Of a stretch of DNA of 64,000 nucleotides, positions 39,624-44,244 are shown piece after piece; the stretch's first letter is position 1; every line of letters begins with the position of its first letter. Source of the stretch: Candidatus Geocrenenecus huangii (GTDB taxonomy: Archaea; Thermoproteota; Nitrososphaeria_A; Caldarchaeales; Wolframiiraptoraceae); contig JALNKM010000001.1 of assembly GCA_023268155.1 (NCBI GenBank), forward strand, positions 186,001-250,000. Reading direction: 5' to 3'. Both the position numbers and the translations under genes were made by a program. Under the pieces are notes generated by a model. That model was given only the letters and a program-made list of their open reading frames with translations, was not told the origin of the DNA and made no database searches.

Positions 39624-41102
39624 ATGTCATTAAATTATTTGAGTAAAATAGTTGAAATGATGGGTGTGGTTGCTGAGAAGTTTACTGTTAAGAAGAAGGT
39701 TAGAAGAAAGTTTAGAATAGCGCTCGTCTACCCTAACGTCTACAAGGTTGCTATATCGAATCTCGGGTTTAGGATACTGTATCATCTCCTGAATCTCTAT
39801 GAAAGAGCATATTGTGAGAGATTTACTAGTGAGAGTGGTAGGAGCCTCGAGACAGGCTCATCTATAAGTGAATTCAATCTGATAATGTTTACCTATCAGT
39901 ATGAGCCAGACTTGTTCGAGATTGTCAGATGGGTTGTTAGACAAAACTTGTCAAATAGGATGAAGATTGTAGGTGGACCATGCGTCTATAATCCGTTTCC
40001 ATTAAAAGGATTAACCGATTATGTCTACGTGGGAGAAGCAGAGGCCAGCATAATCGATTTCATTAATGAAGTTATCGATGAGGTTGGGGAAGACGTCTTA
40101 ACAACTTTAAAGGGGGTATTAGACTTAGAAAACATGAAGTATTCTGGTAAAGGATTTCCTGAACCTTTAGATACTTTTCTACCCTCCTTGCAGGCCTCGA
40201 GTAAATTATCTGTATTCGGAGATGCTCTACTTGTAGACGTCAGTAGAGGTTGTAGATGGTCATGCAAATTCTGTTTTGGAAGATATGTCTACTCACCGTA
40301 TCGTGAACGCTCGATAGAACAATTAACTCAAGTAATCGAAGAAGGCTTGAAGGCTGGAAGATACGAGTCACTCGTATTGATCTCTGCTGACTTGAATAGC
40401 TACTCAAGATTGAACGAACTAATAGAATACCTGAATGAACTTCAAAAAAGATCGTACAAGTTTAAAGTTGTGGCCCCATCTCTAAGAATAGACAATCTAA
40501 ACGAGGAACTAATAGAATTCTTGGTGGAGAGTGGTGAGAAGACAATAACGTTAGCCCCAGAGAGCAGTGAAGACCTTCGATATATGATCGGGAAAAAATT
40601 CACTGATGAAGACCTACTTAAAGCGTGTACAATCTTCAAGAGATATGGTGTGAAGAAGATCAAGCTATATTTCATGTTCGGTCTACCTGGTGAAACGATG
40701 CAAGACCTAGAATCTATAATCGGCTTGGTTAGGGAGATAATGAAGATGGGCTTCCTAGTAAGAGTTAGTGCTAATCCCTTCGTACCGAAGCCTCATACAC
40801 CATTCGAAGATGAAGAATTCGGAGATGTAAAGGAGCTTAAAGAAAGACTCCGATTTCTCAAGAAAGAGCTTAAAGATGCTTTATCCACTGATGGTATAAG
40901 GCAGGCTTTCCTACAATCAATAATTGCCAGAGGAGATGAAGAAATAGGTAAGCTAGTTGTAGAATGTGTAAAGTCTGGAGAGCCGCCAACAATAACTCAA
41001 TTAAAAAGGAATGCGGAAAGACTTGGAATAGACTTGAAGGAATATGCTAAACATGGTTCTGAGGCAAAGCCTTGGAAAAGATTAAGAACACACTATCTAT
41101 AA
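39624..41102 (+). CDS. B12-binding-like radical SAM protein
   Basis: 492 residues. N-terminal cobalamin-binding-like domain (RIALVYPNVYKVAISNLGFR, FTYQYEPDLFEIV, VGGPCVYNPFPL) and a radical SAM core with the 4Fe-4S motif CRWSCKFC, GRY after it, and APESSEDLRYMIGKKFTD, FMFGLPGETMQDLESI. A conserved archaeal family of unknown substrate. A TATA-like CTATAATG about 23 nt before ATG 39624 supports that start; ATG 39657 is possible. Confidence 0.88.
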   Translation: MSLNYLSKIVEMMGVVAEKFTVKKKVRRKFRIALVYPNVYKVAISNLGFRILYHLLNLYERAYCERFTSESGRSLETGSSISEFNLIMFTYQYEPDLFEIVRWVVRQNLSNRMKIVGGPCVYNPFPLKGLTDYVYVGEAEASIIDFINEVIDEVGEDVLTTLKGVLDLENMKYSGKGFPEPLDTFLPSLQASSKLSVFGDALLVDVSRGCRWSCKFCFGRYVYSPYRERSIEQLTQVIEEGLKAGRYESLVLISADLNSYSRLNELIEYLNELQKRSYKFKVVAPSLRIDNLNEELIEFLVESGEKTITLAPESSEDLRYMIGKKFTDEDLLKACTIFKRYGVKKIKLYFMFGLPGETMQDLESIIGLVREIMKMGFLVRVSANPFVPKPHTPFEDEEFGDVKELKERLRFLKKELKDALSTDGIRQAFLQSIIARGDEEIGKLVVECVKSGEPPTITQLKRNAERLGIDLKEYAKHGSEAKPWKRLRTHYL

Positions 41103-41705: not shown

Positions 41706-41743
41706 CCCGGGCGGGATTTGAACCTCCGACCTCAGGCTCTCTC
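41706..41743 (-). repeat. tRNA 3'-end-like direct repeat (candidate att site, left)
   Basis: 33 of 38 positions match 44153-44190, the 3' half of the intact tRNA-Thr, in the same orientation; the first 19 nt (41706-41724) are identical. No 5' acceptor half pairing with it is present, and its T stem has two mismatches, so it is not a complete tRNA. This layout, 3' fragment on the far side and intact tRNA on the other, is what site-specific integration into a tRNA leaves. The alternative is an unrelated degraded tRNA. Confidence 0.6.
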
Positions 41744-41755
41744 CAACCCTCTGAT

Positions 41756-42613
41756 CTAGGGTTTCCGAAGACCTACGCTATTCTTACTGCGCCCTCTCAA
41801 ATCTAAGCCACTTGGGTTCTCGGATTCATGGAAGAAAATGCCCAGAATGTAGAAGAAGATGAACCAGCTGATGAATAGGCTGATGTTCAGGATCAATTCG
41901 CTTGTATAAATGGATAGAAACGTGTAGGAGGTCATTATGCCTCCGTGCAGTGAAGCCGAAACATAAATGTCTGATGCCTCCCTTAGAGCCCCGGCCAGGC
42001 ATCCGAAGGCGAAGGCTCCTAGGATGTGTATGGGCATCCACCAAGCCGGCTCCCACCTTGATATAATCGGGTTCCAGTAATTGACTATGTGCATCAAAGC
42101 GAAGATTATGGAGGTTAGAGGTAAACTCATTCCATAATCGACTTTCCAAGCCTTAAAGATGAGCCTCCGCCAGTGCCTCTCAAAGGCCTCATTAAGCCTA
42201 GACTGCACATAACCCCTAAAATAAGCCTCCTCAACAAGCCCGATGAAGACCATGTTGAAGATCACGTTTAGAATTATGCTGAGCGGCGACAGCCCAGCAG
42301 GCTTAGCCACGCCCAGAGCCGCCGACACCCCAATTGAGAACGCCGAGGGTAGGATAAAGATCGCTATAAATACTGAGCTCCACTTCAATGTGAAGCGCGG
42401 GCTTCTGGGCAGGAAGCCGTAAATCCTAAAACTCCTCCTGGGCAAGATGATGGCGAGTAGGGCTAAGAGCATCATAATAAATTTTGGAAGGCCAAAATAC
42501 CAGAACATATTACGCTTTAAGTAAGCCTCGTAAAACCACCAAACAAAAGTTAGAATTAGAGAAGCTAGGCAGACCTCAAATAAAGCCGCATACCGCTTAT
42601 CTAAGGAGGCCAT
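41756..42613 (-). CDS. CPBP/CAAX-type intramembrane metalloprotease
   Basis: 285 residues, multiple membrane helices. Abi/Rce1 family motifs: LVEEAYFRGYVQSRL (EExxxR), IIFALMHIVN (FxxxH), and ASLHGGIM. Members cleave prenylated or other membrane substrates, or serve in defence and peptide immunity. Its DNA is clearly GC-richer than the flanks (many GCC, GGC, CCC codons), which suggests transfer. Its last residues run close to the tRNA-like repeat, so the C-terminus may be altered by the integration. Confidence 0.82.
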   Translation of the reverse strand: MASLDKRYAALFEVCLASLILTFVWWFYEAYLKRNMFWYFGLPKFIMMLLALLAIILPRRSFRIYGFLPRSPRFTLKWSSVFIAIFILPSAFSIGVSAALGVAKPAGLSPLSIILNVIFNMVFIGLVEEAYFRGYVQSRLNEAFERHWRRLIFKAWKVDYGMSLPLTSIIFALMHIVNYWNPIISRWEPAWWMPIHILGAFAFGCLAGALREASDIYVSASLHGGIMTSYTFLSIYTSELILNISLFISWFIFFYILGIFFHESENPSGLDLRGRSKNSVGLRKP

Positions 42614-42684
42614 ACCAACTATATCCTACAATTGAGATGATAAATCTTAGCAGCCTTGCAGTGATAGTGTCCAAATAAGCATTC

Positions 42685-42897
42685 TTAACCACATCCCAAT
42701 CCATGGTTTGGTAGTATAGTGTGAATTAGGTTTAGGAATATGTTCAGGTTAGTTATTCTCTGTATAGGGTCTCTTGTACTTAGCTTATTATAGAATACTG
42801 CTATTCTCTCCTTTAGACATCTGAAGAATCTCTCAACTCTATTTCTCATTCCAAACTTCTGATACTCGTAATCTAATCCTAGTCTTAGAGAAACCAT
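42685..42897 (-). pseudogene. IS6/IS240-like transposase, C-terminal fragment
   Basis: 70-codon remnant. KFGMRNRVERFFRCLKERIA, then VFYNKLSTRDPIQRITNLNI matches the last part of IS6-family-like DDE transposases (the final catalytic Glu is in RVERFF). The first two acidic residues and DNA-binding part are missing. No full insertion sequence ends are recognised. Confidence 0.6.
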
Positions 42898-42943
42898 TAT
42901 CTGGAGAAGTAATAAGATATAACTAAAGATTATCTAATAAAAA

Positions 42944-43011
42944 TTCTGATTCTTCTAGCAATGATAGTTATTGGAGGGATGATAGCATTAGACATGATAG
43001 AAGAATCAGAA
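42944..43011. repeat. Perfect 14-bp inverted repeat around a short hydrophobic open frame
   Basis: TTCTGATTCTTCTA (42944-42957) is the exact reverse complement of TAGAAGAATCAGAA (42998-43011), 40 nt apart. Between and beyond lies a 26-codon frame (42961-43041) with peptide MIVIGGMIALDMIEESEELD and five more codons, one membrane-like segment then acidic. It could be a mobile-element end, a transcript hairpin, or a gene remnant. Confidence 0.45.
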
Positions 43012-43063
43012 GAATTAGATGAGGTGAGGTACATTGACTAACATTACTGGAGTGTGAGAAGTG

Positions 43064-44086
43064 ATGGTGCAGAGAAAGCCACCACTAGAAGTCAAGGAGA
43101 AGCTGGAAGAAGCATTAAAGACAGGAGTAGCGAAGGGTTACGGCTATCACAGGATCTGGAGAATACTAAAAGAAAGCGGTGTTGAGATATCGGAGTCTAC
43201 AGTCAAAAAATATTATCACGAAATTTTTCGAGAGGGTTTGAAGAAGAGAGGACCATGTTTGCCAAGAGAACTAAGGATTAAGCTATACGATGAAGTTAGA
43301 AGGCTGAGGAAGAAGGGACTATCATACAGTATGATCATTGATGAGGTATGCAAGTCTCATGGTGTGCGACTGAAGAAGTCGGTGATCAGCTATTGGTGCA
43401 AGGATATCCATAACCCATTCAATGGGATAAGAATACCCTCAGTAGAATTTCTAGAACCGTCTCCAGAGCTCGCCTACATAATAGGTGTTGTTGCTGGTGA
43501 TGGATGGACAGTCAAGAAGAAGAATGGCATATACGAAGTAGTAGCTGAGGTAAAGGACGAGGACTTCATAGAAGAATTCTCTAGATGTCTAGGAAAAGTT
43601 CTTAGAAGAGATCCGCCTAGACCGAGACAAAGGAAATATAATATGCTAGTAGTAAGTGTTAAATCTAAAGCTCCATATGAACTGCTTCAGAAGCCAATAG
43701 ACATAAGTAGAATAGCACCTTTCGTAGAACATTGCGAAGAGTGTATGAGGAGGTTCATAAGAGGATTCTTCGATAGTGAAGGAAGTGTGGGTGGAAATAA
43801 ATGGATTTCCTGCTATAACAGCAACATACAGCTTCTCCAATATGTCAGGAAGATTCTAAATCTTCTTGGGATAAGAACGACTGAGCCAAAGATATATCTG
43901 AGGAAAGGAACTACATTCTTCGACAGAAGAAAAGGGAAAATATATGTAGTAAAGAAAGATGCATGCTACATATATGTTAGAATGTCGGATGCACTAAGAT
44001 TTTATAAACTGATTGGATTCATCATTCAAAGGAAGCAGAAAAGACTCGAAAACTATCTTAAGAAACGTGGATTACTAACAATATAG
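43064..44086 (+). CDS. Free-standing LAGLIDADG homing endonuclease
   Basis: 340 residues. Two helix-turn-helix-like repeats at the N-terminus (KGYGYHRIWRILKESGVEIS, KKGLSYSMIIDEVCKSHGVR), then two LAGLIDADG motifs, AYIIGVVAGDGWT (138-150) and FIRGFFDSEGSVGG (232-245), so a single-chain enzyme. It cuts a long specific DNA site and spreads introns or itself. Not in an intron here; it lies about 65 nt from the 3' end of intron-bearing tRNA-Thr. GTG 43061 or ATG 43064, GGAG about 11 nt upstream. Confidence 0.88.
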   Translation: MVQRKPPLEVKEKLEEALKTGVAKGYGYHRIWRILKESGVEISESTVKKYYHEIFREGLKKRGPCLPRELRIKLYDEVRRLRKKGLSYSMIIDEVCKSHGVRLKKSVISYWCKDIHNPFNGIRIPSVEFLEPSPELAYIIGVVAGDGWTVKKKNGIYEVVAEVKDEDFIEEFSRCLGKVLRRDPPRPRQRKYNMLVVSVKSKAPYELLQKPIDISRIAPFVEHCEECMRRFIRGFFDSEGSVGGNKWISCYNSNIQLLQYVRKILNLLGIRTTEPKIYLRKGTTFFDRRKGKIYVVKKDACYIYVRMSDALRFYKLIGFIIQRKQKRLENYLKKRGLLTI

Positions 44087-44149
44087 CCCCCATAACCTCA
44101 CTCTATTTTTCAACCCACTCACACTTGCCATAAATGTAGAATAATGTAG

Positions 44150-44244
44150 AGCCCCGGGCGGGATTTGAACCCGCGACCTGCGGCTTTCTCAAGTTTTGTA
44201 ATTTTGATACGAGGCCGCCGCTCTACCCGCTGAGCTACCGGGGC
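44150..44244 (-). tRNA. tRNA-Thr(CGT) with intron
   Basis: Acceptor GCCCCGG (44238-44244) with CCGGGGC (44151-44157), discriminator U. D arm GCTC/GAGC, anticodon stem GCGGC/GCCGC, T arm GCGGG-TTCAAAT-CCCGC. Loop C-T-CGT-A then a 22-nt intron (44186-44207) at the 37/38 site, then A38. CCA not encoded. The 3' half is repeated at 41706, marking this gene as the likely integration target. Confidence 0.88.

Follow-up and report, generated by a model that had tools for sequence, protein, structure and literature searches.

tRNA genes are classic landing sites of integrase-borne islands. Islands of tyrosine integrases (Islander, PMC4383910; archaeal tyrosine recombinases, PMC8371274) leave a split and restored tRNA gene and a displaced 3' end, as does the element described here, but the latter differs in having no integrase, in consisting of endonuclease-only units of 1-2 kb, in a restored T stem that is not the displaced one and in a short breakpoint core. 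The archaeal LAGLIDADG enzymes I-DmoI, PI-PfuI and I-Tsp061I share its fold and two motifs with conserved acids, and are the best sequence and structure matches to its protein. However, I-DmoI-type enzymes sit in spliced-out rRNA introns or inteins, whereas the endonuclease of the element is free-standing, has an N-terminal HTH region, lies at or in tRNA genes and comes with a substitute 3' end. SegB of phages T4 and T6 is a free-standing GIY-YIG homing endonuclease associated with tRNAs across isotypes, and it cuts inside tRNA genes, its motif RAWTSGAAC being T-loop sequence (PMC13096335). SegB of phage T6 is thus a precedent for an endonuclease cutting in many tRNA isotypes, as we propose for the element, but it belongs to another nuclease family and to phage genomes, and the available part of PMC13096335 does not report insertion into tRNA genes with restoration. 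Synthetic Cleave-and-Rescue or home-and-rescue drives (PMC7968924) likewise turn a nuclease against an essential gene and provide a recoded rescue end, but those are engineered with Cas9, whereas for the element we infer the rescue role of the recoded end. LAGLIDADG enzymes, tRNA islands with displaced ends and the tRNA-associated SegB are already known. The spread of such an element through cellular genomes does not appear to have been described: the open-licence papers searched, whose silence is no proof, contained no endonuclease element that sits inside tRNA genes, lacks an integrase and substitutes the 3' end.

The window, by which we mean the whole 64-kb stretch analysed here, comes from a 1.7-Mb, 21-contig MAG of a hot-spring archaeon. 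We think it likely that an endonuclease-driven element inserts itself into tRNA genes and exchanges their 3' ends for its own, and that the window holds a 5'-truncated copy of it, at the tRNA-Thr(CGT) gene listed last among the following features:

41706..41785, minus strand: degenerate 3' half of a tRNA, with anticodon arm, intron-like stretch, T arm and 3' acceptor strand, continuous with the 3' end of the CAAX gene; best whole-length match to tRNA-Arg
41756..42613, minus strand: CAAX/CPBP-type intramembrane protease, a separate unit; PF02517, E 7e-12; orthologues in G012 and G002:C7
42685..42897, minus strand: transposase fragment, repeated in the genome; IS6/ISC774 profile, E 0.004 (weak)
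42916..43041, plus strand: small membrane-type ORF, open tail (ATG 42961, stop 43039-43041), read from the sequence
43061..44086, plus strand: predicted LAGLIDADG endonuclease, 341 aa, intact, convergent with the tRNA, stop 62 bp from the tRNA 3' end; PF14528, E 7.9e-17
44087..44148, plus strand: element 3' tail between endonuclease and tRNA (C-rich, T run, CTCACA..ATA motif); comparable tails at other tRNAs
44149..44244, minus strand: intact tRNA-Thr(CGT) gene that hosts the element, 22-nt intron; Rfam RF00005, 63 bits; ARAGORN with introns

The original prediction started from a repeat of the tRNA-Thr(CGT) 3' end about 2.45 kb away in the same orientation (33/38 matches), and read the layout as integration at a tRNA, with mobilisation by the endonuclease as an alternative. 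Our recount of the repeat agrees: copies of CCCGGGCGGGATTTGAACC start at 41706 and 44153, 2,447 bp apart and without a third copy in the window, with the first 19 positions identical and 33 of 38 matching over the longer stretch, and a match score of 47 against at most 20 in shuffled sequence. The right-hand copy is part of the intact minus-strand tRNA-Thr(CGT), on whose identity Rfam and ARAGORN concur with the prediction. Around 41706 neither program scores a tRNA.

The left-hand copy may have a different pedigree. A same-genus tRNA-Arg scores 57 against the 41706 fragment, the adjacent tRNA-Thr 51 and a dozen other tRNAs 40-51. It is tRNA-Arg(CCG) of the same genus that the fragment best resembles over its whole length, with an Arg-like anticodon arm and intron and a T-arm identity that is generic to tRNAs; read as a displaced 3' end of tRNA-Thr, it fits in the T arm and acceptor at 25 of 28 positions, but its 5' part resembles tRNA-Arg. 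With a 151-bp stretch from here as the query, G012 matches at 87% over 127 nt and G002 in two parts; at both places (loci L197 and L198) the CAAX gene 3' end is followed by a degenerate tRNA 3' half, while the endonuclease search found no copy at either site. The CAAX unit of G012 lies directly 3' of tRNA-Thr(TGT). Because the relic is fused to the CAAX gene in two relatives and the identity is common to many tRNAs, the repeat is weak evidence for integration here, and the fragment may have been left by an earlier, independent event in which the CAAX gene arrived. The tRNA-integration layout therefore stands for the endonuclease family, which inserts at tRNA genes and leaves displaced 3' ends, but is not supported for the 41706 repeat, given its Arg-like 5' part, its generic T arm and the relics in G012 and G002, where the search found no endonuclease. 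We also considered 41706 as an unrecognised multi-intron or split tRNA and rejected this candidate, as Rfam and ARAGORN give no score, the T stem is unpaired and the same CAAX-fused relic occurs in relatives.

The islet is a composite of a 5'-truncated endonuclease element, a scrap of transposase and a separate CAAX unit. Its predicted gene content was borne out by Pfam and NCBIfam profiles: the CAAX protease is indeed GC-richer than the window (47.6% vs 40.4%) and matches its family at E 7e-12, the LAGLIDADG enzyme matches PF14528 at E 8e-17, and the transposase fragment, despite a weak profile match, has similar copies elsewhere in the genome. These genes had been called accessory, and comparison with a relative supports this. 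At the tRNA-Thr(CGT) locus of the sister species G004 the order is MBF1, permease, tRNA-Thr and SEC59-like gene, and the interval holds a TauE-like permease and no endonuclease, CAAX gene or radical SAM gene. DNA similarity between G004 and G000 ends at the MBF1 promoter and restarts exactly at the tRNA 3' end; this break, together with the missing islet genes, marks the islet as accessory. The radical SAM gene (TIGR03960-like, window positions 39624-41102) is likewise absent from the G004 site, which means that the variable interval extends past the islet. Two-sided synteny with the host's own tRNA loci alone gave no informative pair.

The window protein has two N-terminal HTH-like regions followed by two LAGLIDADG domains (PF14528 twice); a Pfam scan found LAGLIDADG_3 and no GIY-YIG domain. 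Its presumed catalytic acids D147 and E240 are invariant in 26 diverse copies, as are G146, D238 and G241. The AF2 model has a pLDDT of 88.6, a structure search with it returned I-DmoI at the top and also PI-PfuI and I-SceI, and the profile match to I-DmoI has an E of 1e-11, all of which is consistent with a LAGLIDADG endonuclease. The 3' tail is conserved up to the tRNA in same-genome paralogues. The ORF tail at 42916..43041, next to the transposase scrap, is what is left of a gene that precedes the endonuclease in some copies, and marks the 5' truncation. In the KUA_Bin06 genome the small ORFs ahead of the endonuclease are intact; at L233, L237 and L246 there, a small membrane-type ORF (MKKIVEYLEKTYNLLADL...LLLIPILLKLLG) overlaps the start of the endonuclease or lies immediately ahead of it. 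Its anatomy (intact endonuclease, conserved tail and the usual 62-bp gap) places the window copy in the family, and the insertion mechanism is seen in its relatives rather than in this copy. The T arm of the window tRNA-Thr is that of endonuclease-free G004 and of G001, so that no recoding is visible; recoding of the T stem is thus not universal, since this endonuclease-bearing tRNA-Thr(CGT) keeps the stem of an endonuclease-free one. The same genome holds two further endonuclease copies, both decayed, one of which (C15) faces tRNA-Cys and the other adjoins degraded tRNA-like sequence.

Insertion is best seen where relatives with and without the element can be aligned at the same site, as for tRNA-Lys, tRNA-Pro, tRNA-Thr(GGT) and tRNA-Val; the tRNA-Thr(CGT) site is empty in G004. 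In the four comparisons, insertions of 1-2 kb lie inside the tRNA gene at the boundary of variable loop and T arm; the displaced original 3' end is on the far side, and in Lys, Pro and Thr the new, element-supplied 3' end has a different T stem. At tRNA-Lys, the alignment of G016 with G005 runs for 2,074 bp up to tRNA nucleotide 60 and, after an insertion of 1.93 kb, resumes at that nucleotide for another 464 bp; G012 against G016 gives the same break, and synteny is otherwise unbroken on both sides. GGTCGCGGGTTCAAAGCCCGCCGGGCCCG and the native trailer lie on the far side in G016 and agree with endonuclease-free orthologues, while the restored gene carries GTCCCGGGTTCAAATCCCGGCGGGCCCG, with a T arm unlike those orthologues. 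At tRNA-Pro(CGG), G038 compared with G032, G022 and G034 has a 2.18-kb insertion with its break at nucleotide 47, and its displaced end is identical to the G032 3' end at 32 of 32 positions; both T-stem types, including the 'new' one, occur in endonuclease-free relatives. At tRNA-Thr(GGT), G014 compared with G021 has a displaced T stem GCGGG, as in four orthologues, and a restored GTGGG, and the unit has space for the endonuclease only. At tRNA-Val(CAC), G029 has a 1.04-kb insertion in the tRNA relative to G033; the near tRNA-Val is replaced over its whole length, and the original 3' end and trailer are displaced. A pair of ends within one genome was found at tRNA-Ala of G025, where the far fragment has the same acceptor and another T arm. 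The breakpoint is constant at the variable loop and T arm. The two ends have different T-stem pairs 49-65 or 50-64 in Lys, Thr, Pro and Ala but agree in the acceptor strand; at the breakpoint, the restored and the displaced end have 3 bp in common in Lys and Thr, and 7-8 bp in Pro and Ala. Comparison thus shows that the element is associated with tRNA 3' ends and lies inserted inside tRNA genes, that the original end has been displaced and that an end with another T stem has taken its place.

The pairing of a displaced with a restored tRNA 3' end is also the hallmark of tyrosine-integrase islands (Islander, PMC4383910), and the units could in principle be integrase-made islands that have lost the integrase, with the endonuclease as a passenger and the 41706 repeat as attR. 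The 7-8 shared breakpoint bases in Pro and Ala leave room for an integrase acting in trans there. We nevertheless consider this origin unlikely. Both T-stem strands are replaced together, whereas an integrase crossover in the T loop would keep the 5' strand, so the crossover was not in the T loop, and the shared core in Lys and Thr is only 3 bp. Minimal units contain the endonuclease only, and gap and orientation to the tRNA are constant across dozens of loci. A PF00589 search of six genomes found no tyrosine integrase near the units (none at all in G014, G002 and G005, and those of G000, G016 and G038 on other contigs), in accord with the lack of an integrase noted by the original prediction. 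Mobilisation by the endonuclease, its alternative, is now the leading reading, because the minimal units are endonuclease only and no integrase is near.

The association with tRNA genes extends well beyond these loci. An Rfam tRNA faces the endonuclease stop within 160 bp at 40 of 71 assessable named loci against 0.17 expected, a count that uses Rfam gathering scores alone and in which copies from one genome are related, so that any probability attached to it is a guide only. The gene is free-standing and convergent with the tRNA, not inside an intron or intein, and in most copies the tRNA 3' end follows about 35-140 bp past the stop in the DNA read from there. Flanking tRNAs include Thr, Tyr, Met, His, Arg, Ile, Ala, Glu, Ser, Pro, Asp, Cys, Val, Lys, Gly and Leu, with isoacceptor labels partly read by eye because ARAGORN mislabels intron-bearing tRNAs. 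In the tree, copies cluster by host lineage, and the tRNA differs within genome-specific clades; the tRNA-flanked euryarchaeal copies are all at tRNA-Met(CAT). Some members have no recognisable neighbouring tRNA, and in G023 and G026 it is just upstream of the copy, and in the same direction, that a tRNA-like 3' end lies. It might be argued that the endonuclease merely tolerates insertion in safe, variable DNA 3' of tRNA genes, as a hitch-hiker in a hotspot and without targeting the tRNA; turnover there is indeed fast, G004 and G000 having no genes in common in the interval. But a hotspot would fix neither the orientation nor the gap of about 60 bp, and would not produce insertions that interrupt the tRNA gene and come with a replaced 3' end, which makes this explanation improbable.

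Several loci depart from the common arrangement or add to it. At L208/L119, a rare copy faces the 5' end of tRNA-Ser in the same direction rather than a 3' end. In archaeon HR02 (L169/L257) an apparent tRNA-Gly is split by an endonuclease copy with its 3' end unrestored, and an intact tRNA-Gly(TCC) lies nearby. Endonuclease-bearing tRNA-Met(CAT) genes of Thermococcus, Archaeoglobaceae and Methanocaldococcus (L255, L256, L262, L267, L269, L273, L275 and L279) have the T stems GGAGG, CGAGG, CCTGG, GGTGG and GGCCG, a set drawn from endonuclease-bearing genes only. The pattern GGCCGATARGGTTC (L344-L357) picks out tRNAs with a T-arm intron of 20-35 nt, and the endonuclease is at the 3' end in 5 of the 13 assessable. 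A second hairpin and acceptor-like strand (e.g. GGGGTTTCAAAACCCCCCGGCCCA) can directly follow the tRNA 3' end, like a tandem 3' end; this was seen at L344, L348 and L352-L355 (tRNA-Ala), L346-L347 (tRNA-Lys) and L349 (tRNA-Asn). The 0-300 nt upstream of the endonuclease (L214, L223, L210, L220, L206-L208), at the 5' end of the element, are GC-rich, very stably folding and partly conserved (CCCCGACAGGAGG...CTGTCGGGG, GGCCTCCCGGGAAGGCCA). This region is possibly a structured RNA; an Rfam search of it, group I introns included, returned only tRNAs and weak chance hits with E up to 1.

The endonuclease was found in 26 of 121 related genomes, mostly fragmented MAGs, with up to 17 hits in one genome; many of the copies are decayed and contain stops. 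In KUA_Bin06 and the S1_Bin_127 MAG, contig ends are often near such elements. Across 84,980 species-level genomes the scan found 80 loci, mostly in Aigarchaeota/Caldarchaeia and otherwise labelled Thaumarchaeota, Geothermarchaeota, Thermococcus, Archaeoglobaceae, Methanocaldococcus, Diapherotrites and Bathyarchaeota. The family is archaeal and multicopy, with members in Caldarchaeia, Thaumarchaeota, Thermococci and others. A viral origin was considered and dropped, IMG/VR having given one weak match only. That the enzyme is domesticated, with a host role at tRNA genes such as tRNA or intron maintenance, might account for the fixed position beside tRNAs and the confinement of the tRNA-flanked euryarchaeal copies to tRNA-Met, but the patchy presence (none in G004), the many decayed copies and the paralogues at different tRNAs in one genome make it very improbable.

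We therefore return to an element mobilised by its own endonuclease. The nuclease would cut near the boundary of variable loop and T arm, at about positions 43-49, in sequence common to many tRNAs, and repair from an element-bearing tRNA allele would insert the element. Its tRNA-proximal end would bring a substitute T arm and acceptor 3' strand that restore the tRNA, stranding the original 3' end on the far side. The changed T stem, or a T-arm intron in other hosts, might then block re-cutting. We speculate, more tentatively, that this could amount to natural cleave-and-rescue, in which T-arm cutting is paired with a functional recoded 3' end such that infected tRNA genes resist and uninfected ones are destroyed or converted, with T-arm introns as a second form of resistance.

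A lone endonuclease apparently does the job of an integrase island with 1-2 kb, and does so among the tRNA genes of one genome and across archaeal classes. Should the changed T stem act as a rescue, this would be a natural version of an engineered gene drive and would give selection grounds for varying T stems and keeping T-arm introns, which bears on the question why introns arise in unusual positions of archaeal tRNA genes. If cleave-and-rescue is indeed at work, the resistance conferred by T-arm introns would be a reason for the spread of odd archaeal tRNA introns.
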